From IMG/VR virus record IMGVR_UViG_3300020054_000008, positions 78,680-142,679 of that record: 64,000 bases of DNA; one strand, 5' to 3'. The position numbers were made by a program, and so were the translations under genes. This document shows, in pieces, positions 31,315-44,138 of the stretch; positions within the stretch are counted from its first letter, which is position 1, and every line of letters starts with the position of its first letter. The notes beneath the pieces were generated by a model. The model saw nothing but the letters and a program-made list of their open reading frames with translations. It did not search any database and was not told the DNA's origin. Source of the stretch: a virus.

Positions 31315-34300
31315 CTATCCTTCTGCTGATGCTAGCGCGGTGGTCATAACAGATTTATCTACCAAGACCTTGCCGACCTTGTCAGCATCCATGGTAACCT
31401 GTACATTAAGAGTAATATTTACCGGTTCGTTGGTAACGTTAAATTGGCCATCGCCTGTCCCGATCGCTTTCGCGAAATTATCAAGAGCTACTTTGGCGTT
31501 GAGTTCTCCAACGCTGTTTAGAGCAGTTATCGCAGCCTTTGCGTTATCCACCATCGCTGTGACGGCAGCGCCCATAGTTTCAGCTGGTCCCATTCCTTCC
31601 GAAGCAGTCGTCAACTCAGTGAGTGCTTGAGAGAAGTCGATAAGACCCTTGGTCATCTTACCCGCTGTGTCAAGTGTGGTCAAAGCCGCTTCATTAAGCG
31701 TCATCGATTCGAGTGTGGTGAACAGGGTCGCAATGCTATTCTCTCCAGTGAGAGAGCTGACCATACCCTGGACGACATTCTTAACAAGGCCACCGACAGA
31801 AGATCCTTCAGGAACCTGCATGCCCGACAACTTCGATACTGTATCGGCAAAAGAACCAACAGCGGCCATGGCTTTGGAGACAACATCAACTTTCTTCAAC
31901 GCCAGTTCCACAGCGGCATCATCACCTAGACCCGCCGCGGCGTCAAGTACAGCATTGATGAGCTTCGGCATCTCGTTCTTGACAGAATTAACGATGGTTG
32001 TTATCATCTTTGCCATTTGTCCTATTCTCGTAGCCAAATCATCACCACCGAACCAGCTATCATCTTTAGGTATGAGCTTGGAGACGTCTCCAATAGCTTT
32101 GGCGAAATTCCCAACCGCTGCCATAGCATCGACAACAACCTTCATCCTTGGGCCGGCCTTCTCTGGATCTCCGACTAAGTTAGCCATCACAATAAGAGTT
32201 AAAAGCATATCGGGTAGAGTATCTTTAATCGCGTCTAAAAGCTTGATTATACCGTCAACGATTGCTCCCATTGTTTTCGCGACGTCCTTGCCGAACATGC
32301 CACTCGATATTTCCGAGAGCGCCTGGAGCGGTGTCATCAATGCAGACGCGAGTTCAGCGACGGCACCAAGAGCACCAGCGATGACTTCCACTTTCTTTTC
32401 AGAGCCGTCAGGAAGTACCCCTGCGAGAAATACGAGGGTAACCATGATCGTCACGAGCGAATCAGTAATCTTCCCAAGAAGATCGCCGATTGAAGTGAAT
32501 ATTTCCGACATAGATGGTCCACCCATCAACTGCGATACAACACCCAGCTTCGCTGCATCGAGCCCGATACCCGCAAGAGACTGCATCACTTCGGCGACTT
32601 TGGCAATAACGTTTATTCTCTTGGCGACGTCATCAACGTTCGGTATCTCCAGAGACATGAGAGCGCTTATCATACGCTTGATATCACCCATCGCACCAAC
32701 GAAGAAGTCGGCGGCAACCTTAAATCCGCCCGCCAGAATTGGAGCAAAAATTCCAATTGCCGCGAAGGCCACACCGAGACCGGCCATACCTGCTATTATT
32801 CCGACCATGACTATAATCGCCCCAATAGCTGGCCCGATTATCGGTAGGCTGTCAGATATCTTCTTGAACGTAGGCAGAAGCTCTTGCAGGGCTTTCCCAA
32901 ATATCAGTACACCTGCTGTGAACAGTAGCGCTGCGGCGACCATACCGACTATCATTATTGGTACTGCTGTCACGAATGATCCAAAGAGCATACCGACAGC
33001 GCCAAGAGCAATAGTAGCCATTAGAGTCAGCGCCAGCATCCCAAGTATTTTAACAAAGTCTACAAACGGAATAGCCTTCAATACTTCGTATGCTATTCTG
33101 ATCCCTGCCGCAAAAGCGACTACAGACACAGTAAAGAACAACGCACCGACAAGCATCATGAGACCGGCGGTTGTAATCGTTGTCGGTTCCATCATGAGTG
33201 CGGCAAACACAAAGGGGACCATAGCTGCTATCGCTATTGCTAGGGCTAAAAATACCTTGAGCAAGCCTGTGAAGGGCACATCTTTTAATATAGCATAGGC
33301 TAATGCGATGGCTCCTGCAAACAAGACTAGAGAAATCCCTGCGAAGGCGGCGAGTATTGTAAGGTTAAATCCGGCTTTGACGACGTCTTTAGGGCTTATC
33401 TCTCCGATCTTTTCAATCATGCTTTTTAAGCCCTCAAAGAAACCGCCACCCTCTTTCTTCATGGCGTCGCCGCCTTCTTTCTCTAGGCCTGCTCCTACCT
33501 TACCACCCAAGTCGCCAGTGAAAAAGCCAACAATCTTCGCGACAATGGCTGCGCCGGCAGCTTCTATCAAACCAGCGACAACAGCTTTCGCAACATTGAA
33601 TGCAACAATACCAGCCATGACCTTGAAGATCAATGGCCCGAATCTATCCATCACTGCCCAGAACATGTTTTGTAGGCCTTCCCAAATCGGCGGCCATGCA
33701 TCTTGAAGCGCTGGTCCAATCTTGGCGAATGCGTCAGCAAACGCACCGCCGATGCCGGTAGATAGGCCGTCAGATGCGCCATCAAGTCCTCCGGGGTCGG
33801 ATAAGAAGCTGGCAACACTATTCATAAGATCACCGAGCTTCGTGGCGAGGAATGGGATCAAGTCTGCTAGCGCATCACCAATAACACGAATGATATTCTC
33901 AAAAAACTTGCTGAAGGCACTGGCACCTTCTGCACCGGCTCCGCCTGTTATATAGTCATAGACATCCCCGAATACATCTTTTATAAGATCAACTATGCTA
34001 TAATCGCCGCCACCAGAAATAGAATCAGAGAACTTTTGGAAATATCCTGTCAGCTTATCGAAAAGTCCTTTTAAGGCTTCTGCATTAAAGATCTTCTTGA
34101 CAGCATCAAAGAGGCCGAGTTTACCCATCAAATCAGCAAACATCCCGCCGAGCTTCTTGCCGAAGTCCATAACAACCTTGAAAGCTTTCTTGATCTCCAT
34201 TATGGATTCTTTATACTCTTTATTCTGAGCGAACCCCCGGCTGAAACCTTTTGCGAATGCATCAAAGAAGCCGTCGACACCCTGACCACTATGAACTAGT

Positions 34301-35733
34301 TTCTGGATTGATTTCGAGAGCTCAAGCATGACTTCTTTTTCAGACATCTTGTTGGCTTCGGATTCTTCAGCTGCCGCCTCCATGTCTTCATAAGCAACGC
34401 CCATGTTTTCTGTGGCTAGCGCATTCTCCATAGCAGAAACGGACAGACCCATCTGTTCAGCCATTAGCTTCTTTTCTGCTCTTGACATGTCGTCGACGGA
34501 TTTACCGGCAGCATGGAATGCTTCACGCATCTTGTCAATACGCTCAGCTGGGTTTTGCGCGTTCATCATTTCCATAGTGTCAAGCTGGAGACCGAACGCT
34601 TGGTTCAGCTGTGCTACGGAGCCGGCGGCAGATTCAAAATCATCGAACTTATCAATAACTCCCTGTAGGTCTTTTGCTTCCATACCAAGCTTAGCCATGT
34701 AGGTAGCAGTAGCAGCAAGTTCTTTCTTGCTCATGTTACCGAAGTTTGCAACATCTTCAGTAAGAGCAGACATGTTTTTACCGATCGTCTTGGCAGAAAC
34801 GCCAAACTTGTTACCCATCTGGATAGCCATTGAACCCATCTCAACGAGCTCAGTCCCTACATCCTTACCGGTATTGTGGGCCTTTCTTGCCATTTCAGCA
34901 AGGGCTTCATTGGTCATGCCAAGACCCTTGTTCATCATGACCATCTTGTCAGCCGCGCCGGCGATCTGATCTTTCAGCATTGAGAATTGAGGGCCTGCGG
35001 CTTTTGCTATCTCACCAACCGCCTTTAGCATGGCAGCGGCACCACCTGAGCCATATCCAAAAACTTGGCTTACGCTTAGACCAGATTGCGCTAAAGCCGA
35101 TGACGAAGAGCGTAAGTTGTCAAACCCTTCCATAACGGCGGCGCCTTCGCCTTTCGACAAGTCGCCCATCTCGCCTTTAAGCTCTTCCATGGCTTGGCGA
35201 AGCTCATTGACTCCGCCGGTTGTAGATGCAGCAGCTTTCGTGAACTCGCCCAAGACCTGAAACGGAATACCGACTATAGACTTACCGACGTTGAATAGGC
35301 CACCAACAACGCTACCGATCCCGCCAGAGATCATACTGAACATCCCTGGCAGACGGCTGAATGTCTTCATCATTCCAGATGCAGCACCAACAGCTGCGGC
35401 TTTCATCGGTGTAAACTTACTTAGTATATTACCGAGAGTGTCCCCGAGACCGCCGGTAGACTTCTGGCCGTCTTGGCCCATCTTGTCTAGGGCACCACCA
35501 GCCTTTGAAGCTTCCTCAGCAGCAGAGCTAAGTGTTGAAGATAGACCAGCTATTCTGTCTTCTAGACCGTCGAGATCTTGACACTCCATCGCTTTGCACA
35601 GCTCTTTAGCAAGCTGCGCCTGGCCGCCTATCTGCTTAGATAGAGCGTCCATCTGCTTAGCACGGTCAGCCAGAACTTTGTTGATCTGCTGATTAATCTG
35701 TAGTTGAGTTTGTAATTCTTTTGAATCAGCCAT
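31315..35733 (-). CDS. tail tape measure protein
   Basis: 1472 aa, the longest gene of the window, as expected for the ruler that sets tail length. The N-terminus is a coiled coil (QLQINQQINKVLADRAKQMDALSKQ...), followed by Gly/Ala/Met-rich helices and a dense series of hydrophobic, membrane-like segments (about residues 650-1010, e.g. ILAAFAGISLVLFAGAIALAYAIL). Further coiled Ala/Lys/Val helices fill the C-terminus. By the common rule of about 1.5 angstrom per residue the tail would be near 220 nm if the whole protein were extended; this is an estimate. It follows tube and chaperone genes, the canonical order. Confidence 0.9.
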   Translation of the reverse strand: MADSKELQTQLQINQQINKVLADRAKQMDALSKQIGGQAQLAKELCKAMECQDLDGLEDRIAGLSSTLSSAAEEASKAGGALDKMGQDGQKSTGGLGDTLGNILSKFTPMKAAAVGAASGMMKTFSRLPGMFSMISGGIGSVVGGLFNVGKSIVGIPFQVLGEFTKAAASTTGGVNELRQAMEELKGEMGDLSKGEGAAVMEGFDNLRSSSSALAQSGLSVSQVFGYGSGGAAAMLKAVGEIAKAAGPQFSMLKDQIAGAADKMVMMNKGLGMTNEALAEMARKAHNTGKDVGTELVEMGSMAIQMGNKFGVSAKTIGKNMSALTEDVANFGNMSKKELAATATYMAKLGMEAKDLQGVIDKFDDFESAAGSVAQLNQAFGLQLDTMEMMNAQNPAERIDKMREAFHAAGKSVDDMSRAEKKLMAEQMGLSVSAMENALATENMGVAYEDMEAAAEESEANKMSEKEVMLELSKSIQKLVHSGQGVDGFFDAFAKGFSRGFAQNKEYKESIMEIKKAFKVVMDFGKKLGGMFADLMGKLGLFDAVKKIFNAEALKGLFDKLTGYFQKFSDSISGGGDYSIVDLIKDVFGDVYDYITGGAGAEGASAFSKFFENIIRVIGDALADLIPFLATKLGDLMNSVASFLSDPGGLDGASDGLSTGIGGAFADAFAKIGPALQDAWPPIWEGLQNMFWAVMDRFGPLIFKVMAGIVAFNVAKAVVAGLIEAAGAAIVAKIVGFFTGDLGGKVGAGLEKEGGDAMKKEGGGFFEGLKSMIEKIGEISPKDVVKAGFNLTILAAFAGISLVLFAGAIALAYAILKDVPFTGLLKVFLALAIAIAAMVPFVFAALMMEPTTITTAGLMMLVGALFFTVSVVAFAAGIRIAYEVLKAIPFVDFVKILGMLALTLMATIALGAVGMLFGSFVTAVPIMIVGMVAAALLFTAGVLIFGKALQELLPTFKKISDSLPIIGPAIGAIIVMVGIIAGMAGLGVAFAAIGIFAPILAGGFKVAADFFVGAMGDIKRMISALMSLEIPNVDDVAKRINVIAKVAEVMQSLAGIGLDAAKLGVVSQLMGGPSMSEIFTSIGDLLGKITDSLVTIMVTLVFLAGVLPDGSEKKVEVIAGALGAVAELASALMTPLQALSEISSGMFGKDVAKTMGAIVDGIIKLLDAIKDTLPDMLLTLIVMANLVGDPEKAGPRMKVVVDAMAAVGNFAKAIGDVSKLIPKDDSWFGGDDLATRIGQMAKMITTIVNSVKNEMPKLINAVLDAAAGLGDDAAVELALKKVDVVSKAMAAVGSFADTVSKLSGMQVPEGSSVGGLVKNVVQGMVSSLTGENSIATLFTTLESMTLNEAALTTLDTAGKMTKGLIDFSQALTELTTASEGMGPAETMGAAVTAMVDNAKAAITALNSVGELNAKVALDNFAKAIGTGDGQFNVTNEPVNITLNVQVTMDADKVGKVLVDKSVMTTALASAEG

Positions 35734-35809: not shown

Positions 35810-36055
35810 TCATAGGGGCCAAACATAACCTGTCTTTTTACGTAGGGCCCTAGAGGCGGCCCTCTTCCTCTCTAGAAGTGGTATGACATCCTTCATCTCA
35901 CCAGACTGTAGGGCTACATAAAAGCGCCGGGACTCTGATAGAACTTTCGCAAAAAGGTTCACAGCATCTTTGTTACCCTTTAGCTTGATTTCTGATATCT
36001 CACCCTTGACGTAAAGAGCACAATCTCTGAGAAATGTATCGTTAACACTTTGCAT
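35810..36055 (-). CDS. small protein between chaperone and tape measure, 81 aa
   Basis: Unrecognised basic helical protein ending in RKRAASRALRKKTGYVWPL. The frame is open from GTG 36064, but ATG 36055 has GAGG at 8 nt and is the better start. Lying between the tail-assembly gene pair and the tape measure, it is probably another tail assembly factor; this is inference from position. Confidence 0.6.
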   Translation of the reverse strand: MQSVNDTFLRDCALYVKGEISEIKLKGNKDAVNLFAKVLSESRRFYVALQSGEMKDVIPLLERKRAASRALRKKTGYVWPL

Positions 36056-36072
36056 ATCATTCACCTCATTCT

Positions 36073-36080
36073 ATAACTAT
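36073..36080 (-). promoter_or_regulatory. ATAGTTAT octamer
   Basis: Seven of eight match to ATAGTTAA, overlapping the TAG stop of the preceding gene, 17 nt before ATG 36055. May be chance because the stop codon contributes three of the bases. Confidence 0.25.
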
Positions 36081-36280
36081 GTAAATCTACGCAATTTTGA
36101 CGGTACTTGTGACCTGTGACGACTCATTAGAGCGCGAGTCTCAGGATCATTCTGGTGAGCGGCTCGAGAACCAGCATCACCCGCTCGCTTAAGTTCTTTG
36201 TTCAGCCTCGTTATCATCCATATTCGAACCCAAATAGGAATGTTATAGGCTTCAACATACGTGAAGCCCATATAATACAT
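36077..36280 (-). CDS. C-terminal extension of the tail-assembly protein, probably made by frameshift
   Basis: From ATG 36280 this would be a 67-aa protein (MYYMGFTYVEAYNIPIWVRIW...), but no ribosome site precedes that ATG. The frame is open upstream for 17 more codons (GLTSENKEVYLEQIFNL) into the end of the gp26-like gene, up to a run of seven T (36338-36332). Reading with the extension gives one continuous helical domain, which fits better than an internal start. So I interpret it as the downstream part of a frameshift fusion (275+17+67 residues, about 359), the usual arrangement of tail-assembly chaperone genes between tube and tape measure. Confidence 0.65.
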   Translation of the reverse strand: MYYMGFTYVEAYNIPIWVRIWMITRLNKELKRAGDAGSRAAHQNDPETRALMSRHRSQVPSKLRRFT

Positions 36281-36317
36281 AAGATTAAAGATCTGCTCTA
36301 GATAGACTTCTTTATTC

Positions 36318-37157
36318 TCACTCGTCAGGCCAAAAAAACGCGGCGCCTAAAGGCAGCCTCACCTCCGAATGTTCAAGGCATGAAGGACAATCCATCCAGG
36401 ACTTCATCTCAATGCCAGGCTCGTTGTTGTCGATAAACTTCCGCAAGAATAACGAATCACGAGCTGGGAGGTTATTAACCATCATATCGAGCTTTGTCTT
36501 ATCATTAATACCGTTTGCTGAAACAATGGCGTACTTTAAACGTTGTGTAACAAGATTCTCTGCTCTTTGACCTTGTTTCTTACGACGTTCGGAGATCGTC
36601 ATAATCTCCTGCTCATCGTGACCTGTTAGAAGCTTGAACCTAATCTTAGCCTTAGTAACTGGTAGCGTAGTCTCGAAAACATTTTGACCTTCAGCAATAG
36701 GATCTAGATCAAGAGTCTTAATAGGCAGCTCACCTAAATTGAAGGAATGTTTTGATCTCTCGCTGCACGCAGGGCAATCAACTTCCACCTTATACTCTGC
36801 GCCGTAGCCCGTCACTCTAAGCGCAACCATCAAAGCGTTTCTGTCACCTGCCAAAAGTGTGTCAGGATCAACTCTTTTGTCGATCATACATGACTTAATC
36901 AGATGGCTAATCACAGTACCTTTCTTAATCAGCGCCTTTGAGGTGAGAATATCCTCTTCTCTAGCAGTCATTGCTCTAATCTCAACCGTCTCTTTTCCGT
37001 GAAGCGGATGATCTTGGTCATAGCACTTACCGCCAGACGGGAGCGGAACGGTCTCAACGGGGACTTCAAACCCAAAATCGTCTCTCATGACGTTATGGGT
37101 AGGCATATGTTCCTTCATGGAACCAAAGATTTCGCTTCTTTCATTTTCGTTTGACAT
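36318..37157 (-). CDS. T4 gp26-like baseplate/tail assembly protein with two zinc knuckles
   Basis: 279 aa. VPLPSGGKCY (37-46) and the two CxxC pairs, CPACSERSKH (about 131-140) and CPSCLEHSEV (about 257-266), match the T4 gp26-type baseplate hub assembly family found in large myophages. The middle has HDEQEIMTISERRKKQG. ATG 37157 follows CCGGAG. The gene ends with TTTTTTTGG before its last codons; a +1 or -2 slip there would replace the last four residues by a longer tail (see 36077-36280). Position between tube and tape measure suggests the tail-assembly chaperone role. Confidence 0.7.
   Translation of the reverse strand: MSNENERSEIFGSMKEHMPTHNVMRDDFGFEVPVETVPLPSGGKCYDQDHPLHGKETVEIRAMTAREEDILTSKALIKKGTVISHLIKSCMIDKRVDPDTLLAGDRNALMVALRVTGYGAEYKVEVDCPACSERSKHSFNLGELPIKTLDLDPIAEGQNVFETTLPVTKAKIRFKLLTGHDEQEIMTISERRKKQGQRAENLVTQRLKYAIVSANGINDKTKLDMMVNNLPARDSLFLRKFIDNNEPGIEMKSWMDCPSCLEHSEVRLPLGAAFFWPDE
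36332..36338 (-). promoter_or_regulatory. candidate programmed frameshift site (seven T)
   Basis: In the gp26-like frame this is GCG TTT TTT TGG. A +1 or -2 slip gives GGC CTG ACG and continues into the 36077-36280 frame. A -1 slip stops after two codons. The downstream frame has a TAG a few codons before the run, so any shift must occur within about 30 nt. Confidence 0.6.
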
Positions 37158-37322: not shown

Positions 37323-37811
37323 TTAGTACTGAAGGACGCAGTTATCGAAACGGATCGTAAGAGCGATTTCTGCAGGATCTTCTGAGCCGTAATCCAAGTC
37401 ACCAAAACCGGCAGACGTTAGGAAACAACCCTTCATGTCCCAAAGCTCTACGACTGTCCCGACAGGGTCAAGAAGCTTAAGCTGACAATCTCTCTTGTAG
37501 AAATCCGCGTAACCACCACGTCCAGAAACAGATTCGTAATGAGTACGGACCCATTCCATAACTTGTTGCGCACCTGACGGAGCGATTGGATCGTGAAGGG
37601 TCACTGAAACTGCGTCAAACTTCGTCTTACCAGCGATATACCTTTGACCGTTCATATATGGAATTTCGATCTCGGCAGTGTTCATGGTAGGACGGGCAGC
37701 CGTCTTAATAAGAAATGCGTCAATACCCTCAATAGCGAACACCCACCGAAACTTTCTTTTCGGCTCAAACTTGTTCGGCAGCATGTCGGTAACTGATAGT
37801 GTCTCTGGCAT
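37323..37811 (-). CDS. tail tube protein (gp19-like)
   Basis: 162 aa, the length of T4 gp19 (163 aa). The order of strands (KFRWVFAIEGID, EIEIPYMNGQRYIAG, FDAVSVTLHDPI, CQLKLLDPVGTVVELWDMKGCF, AEIALTIRFDNC) is that of the myophage tube fold whose hexamer rings stack into the inner tube. AAGGAG precedes ATG 37811 with a 9-nt gap. It is followed by a terminator and preceded by an ATAGTTAG octamer, so it can be expressed as a separate abundant message. Confidence 0.9.
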   Translation of the reverse strand: MPETLSVTDMLPNKFEPKRKFRWVFAIEGIDAFLIKTAARPTMNTAEIEIPYMNGQRYIAGKTKFDAVSVTLHDPIAPSGAQQVMEWVRTHYESVSGRGGYADFYKRDCQLKLLDPVGTVVELWDMKGCFLTSAGFGDLDYGSEDPAEIALTIRFDNCVLQY

Positions 37812-37852: not shown

Positions 37853-40800
37853 TTATATGTCCAAACCAGCGTTCGTTACAACAAAGTCGAGTGAGATAAA
37901 CTCGACAGAACGTACTGGCTGCAAGAAGATCTTACCTCTTACAGTGTTGTTTTCGATATCAGCTTGAGTAGTCGTTGTGGTATCGATCTGAACCTTGAAC
38001 CGCTCAAGGCCTTGTTGCTGTTGAATTCTAGTTAAGACCGGAGTAACCGCTGCTGAGAACCTTGCCAGCGTGGACTCCCTGTTTGGCTCGAACAAGAATG
38101 TATCGCCAATCTTTCTAACTTGCCGACGGATATCAATCAAGAGTCGTCGTACGTTAACTCTGTCTAGAGCACTTTGGGCGGCTAGAAGAGTCTTTTGTCC
38201 GAACACGACAACCTCTGGTGATTGTGGGAACGACGTAATCGGGTTGATGTCTACTTCGTAGAGAGTATCAAGATTTGTTCTGTTCAACTTGACCTGTGTC
38301 TCTACTACGTTCTTCAGAGCGCCGCGGGTGAAGCCGGCGGGGGCGTACCATGGGAAGGCAACTTGGTCATTTAGACCGAAAGCCCCAAGAACCGCTACAC
38401 TTGGTGGAGCAGAAGAAGCAGCACCTGATGTTTGATCTGTCATTACAACATCGGGGAAGTATGCAGCCGCGAAGCTTGAATCTAGATTTCTTGCCGCGAA
38501 AGTTGCTGCAGTGTTTGTAACACTGACATCTTGATCGGACCCGGAGACGATATTACCAAGAACGTCTTCAACCTCGATATCCATGATGTACATTGCATCA
38601 AATCTATTCTCGACGGTTGTGATCGCGTAATCAGTAACTCCGCTGTGACGAATGCCTGGAATCGCCAACAACTGGATGTCTACGTCTGATCTCTCAGCCA
38701 TAACATCTAGAGCCTTCCTGTAAGCCGCCACAGTAGGTCCAGCAATGAGACCTTGGTTCTCATATGTCATTTCTCTTCTGACGGCTGGAGAGGTCATCTT
38801 GACCCTTTCTTCATTGAAGACGTCTAGACCGTCGAAGCCACCTTGAGCGATCATGGTGAACTTAAGGAACGGACGAGCAGTCGAGAGACCAAAGTCTTTC
38901 TCTACGCTAAGCAGTCGTGTAGATGACGACGAACTACCATCAATGTCATTCATTGTCGCCTCAGCGAGACCCTTCCTTCTGTAGGTAGCAGCGGCCCACT
39001 GTTGAGCATCGGCTTCGTCACTAGAATTGGTGATGACCTGAATTTTCTCAAGTGAGAACTTGTTGTTATTGAATCTATCACAATCGTAGATTGTTCCATC
39101 ATTATCAGCAACGCCAGGATTAGCTCCAACCATTGCTGCTTGGTTCACAACGTCCCAAGTCGGGAAGTACAATCCGTATGAATCGATTGAGGCGTCCAGT
39201 GTGGTCGAAGAGTTGGGCTGTGCCACACTCTGCAGCTTCTCGTGCTGGATACCCCAGTATAGGGATGAGTTAACTCTCTTTCTTGGCGCAAGACCTTGAG
39301 CGACAGTTCTTCTCATCGGAACCGGGGGCTGGACCAGCTGCGCGGCGACTTCAGCATCATCAAGAACGCTTGTGACATCATAAGCAGTTGGATCTGCGAA
39401 TATAGATGATCCAGACGTCACCAAGTGAGGTACTCCTCGGAAACCTACCGGTAAAGCAGTTGCAGGAAGTGTGCCACGCTCCATGTCTACTGACGGAGAT
39501 ACTCTGACGTAATTCGAAGCATTCGGATAACTTCCTTCTACAACAAGCTTCTGGCCACCAGCACGCTTGTCAAAATCGTAGAAGATATTGTAGTCACCAA
39601 TCACTCTAGCAATGTACCGTTCGTTATTAGGATCAAGGCTTAACTTAACAAACCGCTCCAAAACTTTCGGCTCAGCATCGGTATCGTAGAAATCTCTAAC
39701 GAGCAGATCGAACGTGCCGTACTTATTGTTTACGTTCGTTGACTTGACAATGTTCTCAACAGAGATCTTAACTCGGTGGTTACCAATCGCTCCATCATCA
39801 AGACAGTGAACGGTAAATAAGTCTTTGTTTTGACCACCGAATTCCTGTGAAATTATAGTCGGGAACTTTGCAGTCCGGAACCTGTCTGTAAAGGCTTCAA
39901 AGTTCGGCTTCGTTGTAGTCCCTGTGTTTCTGCCTGCTGAACCGGTCAGGAGGAATGCAATCTCTTCGTTCTTTATTGTGACACCCTCTTTAACACCGTC
40001 GAAAGACGCACTGTAGGTCGAGACCATCCGCAATGAGCCTGAGCATACCGCAAACGCGGGAGGAACGTTGAATTGAGCATACAGACAGTGACCTGCTAGC
40101 TCTGTCTTCGTAGGATCAGTGTTTAGAATGTTACCAAAGTAATTTGGAGCATCAACATCAAAAGACGCTGTAATGACAGTTGGATAGCTGTCAGTGTGAG
40201 TGTGACCATTCTGTAAAATCACGAACTCTTGGCGACCACCTCCGATGTTAACAGCACCAAGCGTTGAACCAGCATCTTGGGCCGCGCCGGTGCCGAACGC
40301 GAAATTTGCAGCGTAGTTGTTCGCAGTGGGTGCACCCAGCGGAAGGTTATTGGTGGTCTCGTATCTTGAAGAGCTCAACGCAAGGTTGACACCAGAGGGT
40401 GCCAGGAGAACACCTCTGAGAATCGGTTGTACAGCTTGAAGTCCAGCATCTGTGAACACATCGGAGCCATTTGATTGAGACATAATGACACCCAGGAAGT
40501 GCGCCCTACCAAGAGCTCCGGGGTTTATTGTAGTCGATCCAGCATAACCGTTCTTTCCGATAGCACCGTTTGTTTGGATAGTTTGCGACCCAACAACGAA
40601 CCCAGCGTTTGTTACTGCGCCGGTTGCGGTTCTCTTCTTTCCGTCACCAGCACCAAGGGTTCGAACGAAAGTTCCAGCATTTGCATAACTTAACCACTGT
40701 CTCATTGCCATCGGAGCGAAGAGCGTTGTCTCTACATCTCCGAACTCCGCGATGAAGTCGGCAAATGTTGCGACAGTGATCGGAACAAATGCTCTACCTT

Positions 40801-40915
40801 GCTTGGCGGTTCCGATTACACCAGCAGGAATTCCACTCGGTCCCGTTTGGGTTGGGCCAGAAAGATCAATCTCTCTAGTGGACACTCCCGGACTTTTAAA
40901 GGTAAGTTCAGCCAT
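37853..40915 (-). CDS. tail sheath protein, paralogue 1
   Basis: 1020 aa. Contractile sheath subunit. The N-terminus FKSPGVSTREIDLS with VIGTAKQGRAFVPI is the linker strand of myophage sheaths, and the C-terminal domain (about 850-1020: AFPWYAPAGFTRG, QSALDRVNVRRLLIDIRRQV, LEPVRS-like ending IFLQPVRSVEFISLDFVV) is the inner tube-facing core. Between them are large insertions, making it far longer than T4 gp18 (659 aa). Paired with a second sheath gene just upstream. ATG 40915 follows CAGGAG. Confidence 0.92.
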   Translation of the reverse strand: MAELTFKSPGVSTREIDLSGPTQTGPSGIPAGVIGTAKQGRAFVPITVATFADFIAEFGDVETTLFAPMAMRQWLSYANAGTFVRTLGAGDGKKRTATGAVTNAGFVVGSQTIQTNGAIGKNGYAGSTTINPGALGRAHFLGVIMSQSNGSDVFTDAGLQAVQPILRGVLLAPSGVNLALSSSRYETTNNLPLGAPTANNYAANFAFGTGAAQDAGSTLGAVNIGGGRQEFVILQNGHTHTDSYPTVITASFDVDAPNYFGNILNTDPTKTELAGHCLYAQFNVPPAFAVCSGSLRMVSTYSASFDGVKEGVTIKNEEIAFLLTGSAGRNTGTTTKPNFEAFTDRFRTAKFPTIISQEFGGQNKDLFTVHCLDDGAIGNHRVKISVENIVKSTNVNNKYGTFDLLVRDFYDTDAEPKVLERFVKLSLDPNNERYIARVIGDYNIFYDFDKRAGGQKLVVEGSYPNASNYVRVSPSVDMERGTLPATALPVGFRGVPHLVTSGSSIFADPTAYDVTSVLDDAEVAAQLVQPPVPMRRTVAQGLAPRKRVNSSLYWGIQHEKLQSVAQPNSSTTLDASIDSYGLYFPTWDVVNQAAMVGANPGVADNDGTIYDCDRFNNNKFSLEKIQVITNSSDEADAQQWAAATYRRKGLAEATMNDIDGSSSSSTRLLSVEKDFGLSTARPFLKFTMIAQGGFDGLDVFNEERVKMTSPAVRREMTYENQGLIAGPTVAAYRKALDVMAERSDVDIQLLAIPGIRHSGVTDYAITTVENRFDAMYIMDIEVEDVLGNIVSGSDQDVSVTNTAATFAARNLDSSFAAAYFPDVVMTDQTSGAASSAPPSVAVLGAFGLNDQVAFPWYAPAGFTRGALKNVVETQVKLNRTNLDTLYEVDINPITSFPQSPEVVVFGQKTLLAAQSALDRVNVRRLLIDIRRQVRKIGDTFLFEPNRESTLARFSAAVTPVLTRIQQQQGLERFKVQIDTTTTTQADIENNTVRGKIFLQPVRSVEFISLDFVVTNAGLDI

Positions 40916-40949: not shown

Positions 40950-43900
40950 CTACTGGAAGTCTACGCCACTGTTTGTAATGACAAAATCTATAGCAATAAA
41001 TTCGATAGCCCTTGTTGGCACCACAACAATGCGACCGTTCAGTCTGTTGTTCTCAACGTCTTCCTGAGTATTGTTGGTATCATCCATCACGACTCTAAAA
41101 GACTCAATACCCTGCTGAGACTGTATGGTAGCCAGGAGCGGTGTAACAGAATTAACGAAACGAGCTCTGGTCGCAGGAGTGTTAGGCTCAAATAGAATCT
41201 TATCGGCAACGGATACAACTTGTCGCTTCAACTCTAGCATCATTCGACGGACGTTAACTCTATCAAGCGCGCTTTGAGCGAGCTGGCAAGTCTTTTGACC
41301 GAAGATTACGAAGCTACCATCAGCAAAGTTTGCAATCGGGTTGATCCTTGCGTCGTATAGCGTGTCTCTATCACCAGCCGTCAACCTAATGTCTGTGTTC
41401 TTGACTTGGTCAAGGCCACCTCTGTTGAAACCTGCCGGAGCGAACCACGGGTATGCGACTGAATCGTTGTAAGCCAAAGCTCCAATAGCAGCCACAGAAG
41501 CGGGAACTCTTACTCTGCTTCCAGTGGTCTTGTCGGTGATGTACACATCTGGGAAGTACGTCGCAGAGTAGTTATTATCAAACACTCTGGACTCAAACTG
41601 CTCAGCTGTTTCTCTAACATCAGGCCACGCAATCGATGCAGACGCGATAGCTTCGCGGTCCTCAGTGAGGAATAGACGTGCTTGGGCTTCAGACCACGCA
41701 GGAATATCCATGAGGTATATAGCCATAGAGTAGTCCTTCGTTCTCTCTGCGGCCCAATCCGTGACATATGAGTCCCTGATTCCAGGAATTGCTAGGATGT
41801 TAATCCTTGTAGACATGGGATCAGTAATAATCGTCGCGGCTTCTCTGTAAGAAGCAATGCTGTTGTTCTTTCGTCCAGTACCGCCTGGGTTCGACCTCAG
41901 ACCGATTGTACCAGCGCTGAAACCAGACGCGGCCTTTCCGATCTGACCATCAACGCTCGAGGTATCATCTGTCGATGCCGCTCTATCGTTCATGTATCTC
42001 ATATCTTTGTCTAAGATATTAACACCGTCAAACCCACCGAATACTGGAATGTTGAAAGCAGTGTACGGTGTGAAGCGGTTAAACTTCACTGATGAACTCT
42101 GGATTAGAGTCGCTAGAGTAATTCTGCCGTAATCAGAAAGATCCGGATCCATGATCGTGTAGTCTTTGGAGTCCGGTACACCGTTTCTGATGTACGCAGC
42201 TTCAAGCATATGTTCTGGAGCGGATCCGGTTAGGTTGTCTAGCAGCGTCGAGGCGGTAGAGCCAGTACCTGCAAGAACCACTCTAGCAAGAGTAAACTTG
42301 TTAGCGTTAAAGGCATCAGCGCCAGAGCCAGTAAGAATAGTGCCAATCTCTGCTAGCCCTTGGAACTTAGAGTACGCACGGACTAGAGGGTTGAGAACGC
42401 TAGAAGCGTTAACGTTCTGATTCGCGTTTGCAATACTTCCGGTTTCTGGACAACGCTCGTACTTAACACCCCAGTTGAGACGCTTATCAACAAGCTCTTT
42501 CTCTCCAGGGAAACCTGAGAACCAGCCATCCTTTGCATCACCACGCGTTACCTTGTAACGAAGAGGTAGCGGAGGAACGATTGAACCGGTTAGTGCGTAT
42601 CTAGTGGTTAACTTATCAGCACCCCACAACCTTTGAAGAGACGCTCCTGCCTGACCATAAGTTATACCGTCGAGCTCGAGACCTGTATGGAGGCGATCTG
42701 TCATCGCGTCAGAAGTCTTGATTACCGGAACGCCGCGGAACCCGAAAGGACATGCGTCTCTTGGAAGGGTCTTGTTATAGACTGCATCGTTAAGAACAAC
42801 TCTCACGAAATTTGAGACGTTTGGATAACGACCGGTAACGATGATTCTCTTTTCAGCCGCGTTCGTGGCGTCGAAGTTGTAACGTGCCTTGTAGTCACCG
42901 ACTTTCTTACCGATAAAGTTATCTGAGTCTGGATCAAGGACACATCCTGGGAATGCCTCTAAGACTTGCTGATCAAGATCGGAATCATCAAAGCGACGTA
43001 CTTGAACCTCGAAGCTTGGGTAAGGGTAGTTGTCGTTTGTCGACGCCTTAATATTAGCTATGGTGATCTTGACTTTGTCATTACCCCACTCACCATCTGA
43101 AAGCGTCTCGAAGTGGAACAAATCGTGCTCTTTCTTTCCATAGGGCTGTGAAATAATCGCAGGTGATTTCGGTGTTCTAAACCTTGTGTCGAATCGACCA
43201 AACGCATTCAAAGCTTTGGCAGCATTGCCAGTTAGAGCAGTTGTAACCACGTTGTTAGATCCTGACAGGACACTTACAGCTGGTGCTGCGTTAACATCTA
43301 CAGAAGCCAACTCATCTTCAACCGCGAAGTCGAGATATAGCAAGTGCTTCTCTTCAGCGAACTTCAGAGGGTCAGTATTCAGAACATTGGTAATGTATGA
43401 TTGATGTGTCGGATTCAACGAAGCAGTAACAATCTTAACACCCGCACCAGCCTGATCAAGGTATTCGTTAGTAAAAGCAGCACCAGCCGAAGACGAAATT
43501 GCCAGAGCAAAACAAAGGTTCGCAGCGTGGCTTGAATCGTTCTTTAGATCAGCGTTTTGATCGAGCTCATTGCCCCAAGTCTCTCCGATGTCGAGAACCT
43601 GTAAGCGTGAGCCTGATGCCGTTAAAACAACAGCACGAACAAGGTCAACCTTGTCGCCAGTGTTCCCTGGATCAAATGAAGGGTTGTCTGTAAACTGCGG
43701 GAACGAATAATCTGCTGACGCGGATACATCGTGACGCGCAACGATGAACTGGACTGAACTGTCCGATGCACTCATTGGTGAATCAGAAATAATAGGTTCA
43801 ATTTTAAACCCGGCGTTTAAGACGGTCCCTGTGTTCTGTGTATTTGTTATATCAGCGGCGGTCTCATTCGCGCCAGCACCCAGTACTCTAACGTATGTCA

Positions 43901-44138
43901 AAGCAGTTCTGTTCGAAAGAAATGCATCTACAGCGTACGGTCCAAATCTTTCTGGATCTACTGTTCCAAACTTGTTAACAAAATCTGCTGTGCTTCCTAC
44001 TGTAACAGGAACGAAAGCGGGACCCTTCTCGGCGGTACCTACTACTCCTGCGGGAACACCCACAATTTCTGTCTGTCTTTGAGATGCATCAATCTCTCTC
44101 TCGAAAAAACCGGGTGATCTAAATGTTTGTTCGGCCAT
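40950..44138 (-). CDS. tail sheath protein, paralogue 2
   Basis: 1062 aa. Same architecture as paralogue 1: N-terminus FRSPGFFEREIDAS then VVGTAEKGPAFVPV, and C-terminal AYPWFAPAGFNRG, QSALDRVNVRRMMLELKRQV, IVVVPTRAIEFIAIDFVIT. Ends and core align well along their length, while the middle (surface-exposed domains) differs, so the copies are old or under different selection. Both keep complete N- and C-terminal linkers needed for the sheath mesh, so neither looks degenerate. Each has its own leader and ribosome site (here CCAGGAG). Confidence 0.92.
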   Translation of the reverse strand: MAEQTFRSPGFFEREIDASQRQTEIVGVPAGVVGTAEKGPAFVPVTVGSTADFVNKFGTVDPERFGPYAVDAFLSNRTALTYVRVLGAGANETAADITNTQNTGTVLNAGFKIEPIISDSPMSASDSSVQFIVARHDVSASADYSFPQFTDNPSFDPGNTGDKVDLVRAVVLTASGSRLQVLDIGETWGNELDQNADLKNDSSHAANLCFALAISSSAGAAFTNEYLDQAGAGVKIVTASLNPTHQSYITNVLNTDPLKFAEEKHLLYLDFAVEDELASVDVNAAPAVSVLSGSNNVVTTALTGNAAKALNAFGRFDTRFRTPKSPAIISQPYGKKEHDLFHFETLSDGEWGNDKVKITIANIKASTNDNYPYPSFEVQVRRFDDSDLDQQVLEAFPGCVLDPDSDNFIGKKVGDYKARYNFDATNAAEKRIIVTGRYPNVSNFVRVVLNDAVYNKTLPRDACPFGFRGVPVIKTSDAMTDRLHTGLELDGITYGQAGASLQRLWGADKLTTRYALTGSIVPPLPLRYKVTRGDAKDGWFSGFPGEKELVDKRLNWGVKYERCPETGSIANANQNVNASSVLNPLVRAYSKFQGLAEIGTILTGSGADAFNANKFTLARVVLAGTGSTASTLLDNLTGSAPEHMLEAAYIRNGVPDSKDYTIMDPDLSDYGRITLATLIQSSSVKFNRFTPYTAFNIPVFGGFDGVNILDKDMRYMNDRAASTDDTSSVDGQIGKAASGFSAGTIGLRSNPGGTGRKNNSIASYREAATIITDPMSTRINILAIPGIRDSYVTDWAAERTKDYSMAIYLMDIPAWSEAQARLFLTEDREAIASASIAWPDVRETAEQFESRVFDNNYSATYFPDVYITDKTTGSRVRVPASVAAIGALAYNDSVAYPWFAPAGFNRGGLDQVKNTDIRLTAGDRDTLYDARINPIANFADGSFVIFGQKTCQLAQSALDRVNVRRMMLELKRQVVSVADKILFEPNTPATRARFVNSVTPLLATIQSQQGIESFRVVMDDTNNTQEDVENNRLNGRIVVVPTRAIEFIAIDFVITNSGVDFQ

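Follow-up and report, generated by a model that had tools for sequence, protein, structure and literature searches.

We analysed a 64,000-nucleotide stretch of viral DNA (the window), bases 78680-142679 of the 142,679-base virus record IMGVR_UViG_3300020054_000008. Its minus strand carries an open reading frame (ORF) related to gp26 of phage T4, and we are confident that this gene makes both tail assembly chaperones (TACs) of a T4-type contractile-tail phage, the long one through a +1 slip of the ribosome. Comparison with relatives shows coding in two frames, a conserved slip core, no independent start of the downstream frame and homology to T4 gp26 and gp51, and on this comparative evidence a programmed +1 frameshift leading to the long TAC is very likely. 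We infer the choice of +1 over -2, a P-site mechanism, a role for an upstream GGAGGU and hairpin, the ratio of the two products and their action as chaperones.

The gp26-like frame (279 aa, 36318-37157, minus strand) ends GCG TTT TTT TGG CCT GAC GAG TGA, with the seven T's at 36332-36338. From the GGC at 36331, the +1 frame stays open for 84 codons up to a stop at 36079-36077 (36077-36331, minus strand), and reading with one T less gives a predicted fusion of 359 aa (36080-37157, minus strand). We refer to this shift-dependent C-terminal extension as the T domain. The predicted slippery site is TTT TTT TGG (36330-36338, minus strand; core YTT TGG C), with TTT at 36335-36333 as the P-site codon and TGG at 36332-36330 as the A-site codon. 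A -1 slip would read TTG GCC TGA and stop after two codons; the window has no canonical -1 heptamer X XXY YYZ with an open -1 frame, its T domain being in +1. About six codons upstream of the slip site, a TAG in the +1 frame confines the shift to about 30 nt. What a gene finder would call is a 67-aa ORF (36077-36280, minus strand), which starts at codon 18 of the +1 frame, after 17 open codons; the bases before its ATG, GCAGATCTTTAATCTT, contain no Shine-Dalgarno (SD) site, and an independent start is improbable. An earlier sequence-only reading of the window had described the T run, the possible fusion, the early stop after a -1 slip, the limiting TAG and the ATG without a ribosome site, and all of these were confirmed.

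The gp26-like ORF belongs to PF12322 (E 3.3e-17; 63.3 bits against a curated cut-off of 24.5) and matches the baseplate hub family PHROG 150 (E 7.8e-21). Two CxxC pairs, C128/C131 and C257/C260, are invariant in 24 aligned relatives. An AlphaFold model of the 279-aa form (pLDDT, predicted local distance difference test, 86.5; pTM, predicted template modelling score, 0.81) resembles viral 'baseplate hub' models such as that of SP-15 (TMq 0.74). A sequence search of solved structures found none at E 1.

The two-frame arrangement recurs in relatives. In all of the best 80 of at least 599 relatives in viral_contigs, a +1 frame is open from the same motif, running off the contig in two of them (L009 and L016); two relatives (L001 and L002) have a gp26 identical to that of the window. 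The junction motif of these 80 relatives and the window is TTTTTTTGGCC in 65, TTTCTTTGGCC in 12 and TTCTTTTGGCC in 4. With further scans and named phages, 312 gp26-like ORFs were tested with a hidden Markov model (HMM) for the frame of the T domain, which was +1 in 183, -1 in 86 and the same frame in 7, while the 36 without a hit are truncated contigs or have divergent T domains. One same-frame hit (L084) is probably spurious and the remaining six are T4-type ORFs; T4 gp51 itself and five others exceed the T-domain threshold, and near copies of it (L187-L190) fall below. Removal of identical junction stretches reduced the +1 loci from 183 to 104 and the -1 loci from 86 to 83, and an 85% identity filter, applied for the tests of constraint, reduced 101 to 77 (+1) and 81 to 65 (-1).

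Among the 104 distinct +1 loci, 101 have an in-frame YTT|TGG at the junction, the codons before TGG being TTT TTT (70), TTT CTT (16) or TTC TTT (15). The others (L083, L085 and L312) have TTT then C, so a +1 slip gives UUC; TTT then C is likewise found in SP-15 and BRock, and LIS04 has TTT TTT AGT. The 77 non-redundant +1 genes contain 46 other Trp codons, none of which is preceded by YTT. A short form and a C-terminally extended form are thereby predicted from overlapping frames at 104 distinct loci, a number that rules out a sequencing error or a broken gene. These comparisons strongly support the programmed frameshift at the T run that the sequence-only reading had proposed, and the slippery core is kept at the junction as its proposed alignment was meant to reveal. 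A search of viral_contigs with the SP-15 gp26 recovered itself alone, and plasmids held no match to the gp26 of the window or of BRock.

Translation of the T frame probably begins ahead of its first ATG, judging from its base composition and its start codons, and the 67-aa ORF probably has no start of its own. T-frame codons 6-16 lie beyond the stop of most gp26 frames and ahead of the position where the first ATG is usually found; in them the mean share of the commonest base is 0.63, 0.74 and 0.47 at codon positions 1, 2 and 3. The complete T frames (75 of 77) run for 65-95 codons without a stop, and over them the other two frames average 8.1 and 4.7 stops, with minima of 3 and 2. An ordinary separate gene, started from its own ATG or by translational coupling, would account for the ATG that the window and 43 of the 77 non-redundant loci have at codon 18, and Mel-JY01 is annotated in this way; moreover, 37 of the 77 have some ATG, GTG or TTG in the +1 frame upstream of the slip site. 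However, the other 40, the window among them, have no such upstream start, the first ATG is otherwise scattered from codon 17 to 45 or missing from the first 45 codons (2/77), and an SD-like site precedes it in only 3 of 75 cases, compared with 41 of 70 for the first ATG of gp26. The coding signal also extends 5' of this ATG, and a separate gene would leave the YTT TGG core unexplained. We therefore consider a separate gene very improbable.

The same frame could be reached by a slip of two bases back; the fusion would then be identical except for an additional Phe (FFFGL, compared with FFGL after +1). The seven T's of the window permit this, and Mu reportedly uses a -2 shift in its tail chaperone gene. 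Yet TTC TTT TGG, present at 15 of the 101 distinct sites, would after a -2 slip force the UUU tRNA onto UCU, and six of seven distant +1 relatives (L083, L085, L086, L087 and L312 among them, not L088) have TTT then C, where +1 gives UUC. All three site forms let the P-site tRNA re-pair on UUU after +1, which argues for a +1 P-site slip. A -2 shift is accordingly unlikely, and of the '+1 or -2' slip of the sequence-only reading the +1 half is favoured and the -2 half fits those 15 sites poorly. RNA polymerase might instead slip on the T run and yield some mRNAs with more or fewer U's, in which the ribosome would need no shift of frame; the window's seven T's would suit this and the end product would be identical. 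In 31 of the 101 distinct loci, however, a C interrupts the run and leaves no more than three or four consecutive T's (TTT CTT TGG in 16, TTC TTT TGG in 15) and the T domain is still in +1, which leaves polymerase slippage as little credible as a separate gene.

Besides the upstream start codons mentioned above, several observations weigh against the +1 frameshift reading. UGG is a sense codon and not a stop, which makes a pause of the ribosome there less obvious than in the release factor 2 (RF2) gene. Downstream of the site, folding does not exceed that of shuffled sequence (z -1.04 and 0.60), a result for the window with no family-wide 3' test. The nearest solved fold to the 279-aa model is the HK97 tail assembly chaperone (gp13, 2ob9), a weak match that ranks third in Foldseek although it is the best-probability hit (E 1.1, prob 0.33), and in VIA it ties with unrelated rows (Z 4.6, root mean square deviation 5.0, 92 aligned). 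Compared directly, the window's +1-type T domain and T4 gp51 do not match (hhalign probability 0.35), and the match between +1-type and -1-type T domains is moderate (probability 58.9, E 9.3e-5).

According to the +1 reading, most ribosomes would terminate at the TGA at 36320-36318 and release the 279-aa short form (TAC-N, or 'G'). With the Phe tRNA on the last UUU in the P site and the Trp codon UGG waiting in the A site, a minority would slide one base forward, from UUU to UUU (CUU to UUU in relatives), read GGC next and complete the 359-aa long form (TAC-NC, or 'GT') with its 84-residue helical C-terminal domain. By analogy with lambda G/GT, coating of the tape measure protein would fall to the short form, and the less abundant long form would bring in the subunits of the tail tube. 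The +1 site of RF2 (prfB) is CUU UGA C, with an SD sequence about 3 nt 5' of the slip codon. The window shares with it the movement of a P-site CUU or UUU to UUU one base on and an SD-like element upstream, and CTT TGG C occurs in 16 of the 101 loci. It differs in having TGG rather than a stop in the A site and in the greater distance of GGAGGT from the P-site codon, 25 nt as opposed to about 3 nt. Few natural +1 frameshifts on sense codons are known in bacteria and their phages.

Candidate stimulators lie 5' of the site. Across the 77 non-redundant +1 genes, synonymous constraint rises from -36 up to the slip site. The Glu codon at -33 is GAG in 62 of 64 cases, compared with 522 of 1105 elsewhere, and makes GGAGGU at -34 to -29; the anti-SD energy there is -10.5 kcal/mol against -5.2 expected from codon usage, and 41 of the 77 loci fall in the lowest 5%. 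In the window this SD-like candidate, GGAGGT, is located at 36361-36366 (minus strand), 25 nt 5' of the P-site codon, and is followed by a candidate hairpin stretch just 5' of the slippery site (36339-36360, minus strand). Family-wide, the stretch from GGAGGU to the site folds more stably than sequences sampled from codon usage (mean z -1.37; in 32 of 77 loci its energy does not exceed that of the third lowest of 40 samples), while upstream control windows gave z values of -0.09 to -0.39. Against column shuffles the energy is -6.81 versus -5.48 kcal/mol (mean z -0.53; controls 0.01 to -0.22), and the longest stem averages 5.00 bp versus 4.47, a value reached by none of 500 shuffles. The register of the hairpin varies, the commonest being found in 23 of 77, and the family-level signal is not seen in the window alone, whose 73-nt upstream stretch is no more stable than its shuffles (z +0.78). 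A guess that fits these data is that the hairpin shortens the path between GGAGGU and the P site. An SD-like stimulator was also considered for the -1 sites described below and rejected, as GAG GGN or GAA GGN is common there but within codon usage (-6.19 vs -5.56 kcal/mol; 5 of 65 in the lowest 5%).

Homologous proteins of other phages reach their T domain by a different slip at the same place. Among the best 80 of at least 598 relatives of the S-RIM8 gp26, all 80 have T TTT TTC and a T domain in the -1 frame. NNT TTT TTY stands at the junction of 81 of the 83 distinct -1 loci; L195 was counted as -1 although it is a broken T4-type gp51, and L102 (Serratia phage 3M) lacks the heptamer. None of the 74 other Phe-Phe pairs in the 65 non-redundant -1 genes forms a heptamer. 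The codon before Phe-Phe (for Ser, Ala, Asn or Asp) has T as its last base in 81 of 81 -1 loci, these being loci chosen by a heptamer that requires this T. Cyanophages, vibriophages and giant T4-like phages thus have in common with the window the homologous gp26/gp51 protein, the Phe-Phe place and the shift-reached T domain, but they shift -1 at U UUU UUY and their gp26 frame stops one to a few codons later. Seven of ten named records are +1 (Microcystis phage Mel-JY01, Flavobacterium phage immuto, LR756508, GXN1, SP-15, BRock and LIS04), two are -1 (Atu_ph07 and XacN1) and LR756511 is ambiguous; thirteen further named phages all have the T domain in -1, with the heptamer in 12 (not 3M).

Some individual loci depart from these patterns. 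Phage 3M has CAG GTT TTC ATC TGA in place of the heptamer before its -1 T domain, and Ackermannviridae may use another signal. In LR756511 (L084), the gp26-like frame extends beyond its usual end and a T-like frame could be reached by -1 at GGT TTT TTC or from a stop-overlapping ATG. Small coding sequences annotated as 'baseplate hub assembly catalyst' in S-RIM8 (L100), C48C1 (L099), Melnitz-1 (L101) and phi-ST2 (L104) lie inside the -1-frame T domain and are probably the tail of the frameshift product.

T4 shares PF12322 with the window but has two paralogous genes and no frameshift. Its gp26 and gp51 both match the family (8.8e-64 and 3.9e-52); gp51 combines the short domain and the T domain in one frame, and gp26 is the short paralogue. 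The C-terminus of gp51 aligns with the -1 T domains (hhalign probability 91.8, pairwise E 7.5e-7), so gp51 represents the in-frame fusion homologue that the sequence-only reading had named as a check, equivalent to the predicted long form of the window. T4 gene 26 keeps Phe-Phe near its end as GAG TTC TTT GAG, without a heptamer. A quick tree of 69 rows places the +1 rows together (support only 77) and the T4 genes together (86) but splits the -1 rows, and two changes suffice; long branches leave the deep order uncertain. The tree is unrooted, and that the -1 slip came first is a supposition. We tentatively propose, as an account that is possible but somewhat short of probable, that the Phe-Phe U-tract is a two-way switch: an ancestral -1 site (U UUU UUC) would have changed once to +1 (YUU UGG C) in a large clade of phages, most of them uncultured, with the aid of a 5' stimulator of a new kind, a strong GGAGGU placed behind a local hairpin through which it comes close to the P site. 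In a separate profile comparison, the window's T domain had no match to DUF6760 (PF20546). That of L012 (4809-5069) covered most of the profile with 24.4 bits, below the cut-off of 27 (E 3.2e-5). The link was set aside as weak, and 295 and 290 further genomes yielded just phage contigs of two centre genomes.

The gene order agrees with a G/GT-type pair. On the minus strand, two tail-sheath-like ORFs (1020 aa, 37853-40915; 1062 aa, 40950-44138), named by neighbourhood and by the order in relatives, are followed by the tail tube (37323-37811; PHROG 4542, E 4.2e-30), the gp26-like ORF and +1 frame (36077-37157), an 84-aa ORF (35810-36064) and a 1472-aa ORF in the place, and of the length, of a tape measure gene (31315-35733). 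Named relatives have the same order. The pair was said by the sequence-only reading to lie exactly between tail tube and tape measure; it does lie between them, but the 84-aa ORF separates it from the tape-measure ORF. Of 75 relatives checked, 69 have an ORF of 50 aa or more after the T domain, in a position like that of the 84-aa ORF, and several of these ORFs have a similar end, K[KR]..AS..L...TG..W. The two sheath-like ORFs are adjacent and similar to each other, possibly a duplicated sheath gene. No tRNA gene was found in the window.

Published accounts, as far as the passages concerned go, describe G-T frameshifting as conserved in long-tailed phages 'except T4' (PMC5009743, 2016). The lambda G/GT case is a -1 shift and resembles the window in its general scheme (PMC5009743); the window shifts +1 and its protein is of the gp26 type with two CxxC pairs, not of the lambda G type, with no sequence match shown. 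Passages in two later papers attribute to Vladimirov, Gautam and Davidson 2022 the description of a short gene and a fused long gene in T4-like phages (PMC10885494) and of poly-T -1 signals in T4-like chaperone genes (PMC12846349). Others mention a two-gene chaperonin in Bacillus phage 0305phi8-36 (PMC2147016), a tape measure chaperone that could not be found in the T4-superfamily phage May (PMC6509524) and an essential gp51 of unknown function (PMC3004832). Shifts of +1 are reported in structural or tail assembly genes of Listeria phages PSA, A118 and A500 and of haloarchaeal HSTV-2 (PMC5009743); set beside the window by description, PSA shifts at a proline codon in the genes for its capsid and major tail proteins, and in HSTV-2, a virus of archaea, the +1 shift of a tail gene is an inferred one. 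In a literature search with subscription journals mostly outside its scope, we found no report of a +1 shift in a gp26-type gene, of a conserved 5' GGAGGU or of a change of direction; Vladimirov 2022, known to us through the citing papers, may mention +1. The suggestion that a switch in a gp26-type protein may be new is thus reduced: the short and long T4 genes and the poly-T -1 signals are already published according to the two citing papers, and the +1 form is what found no precedent in this search.

Taken together, this virus of bacteria very probably makes a short and a long tail-building helper, the ribosome skipping one letter at a T run, as read from its genome and those of its relatives. 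The kind of system is known, and the +1 direction and its signals in the gp26-type family appear to be new. A +1 shift on sense codons is kept over at least 104 distinct loci, in a family whose other members use a -1 shift or two genes. This allows the direction of the shift, its signal and its stimulator to be compared between homologous genes. For annotation, the Phe-Phe pair of gp26-type genes should be searched for YTT TGG C (+1) or T TTT TTY (-1) and the gene joined to the frame that follows; at present this frame goes unannotated or is entered as a small protein of its own. If the two-way switch is true, it would be a widespread natural +1 shift without a stop codon, in which the direction changed while the protein, the place and the purpose remained the same.
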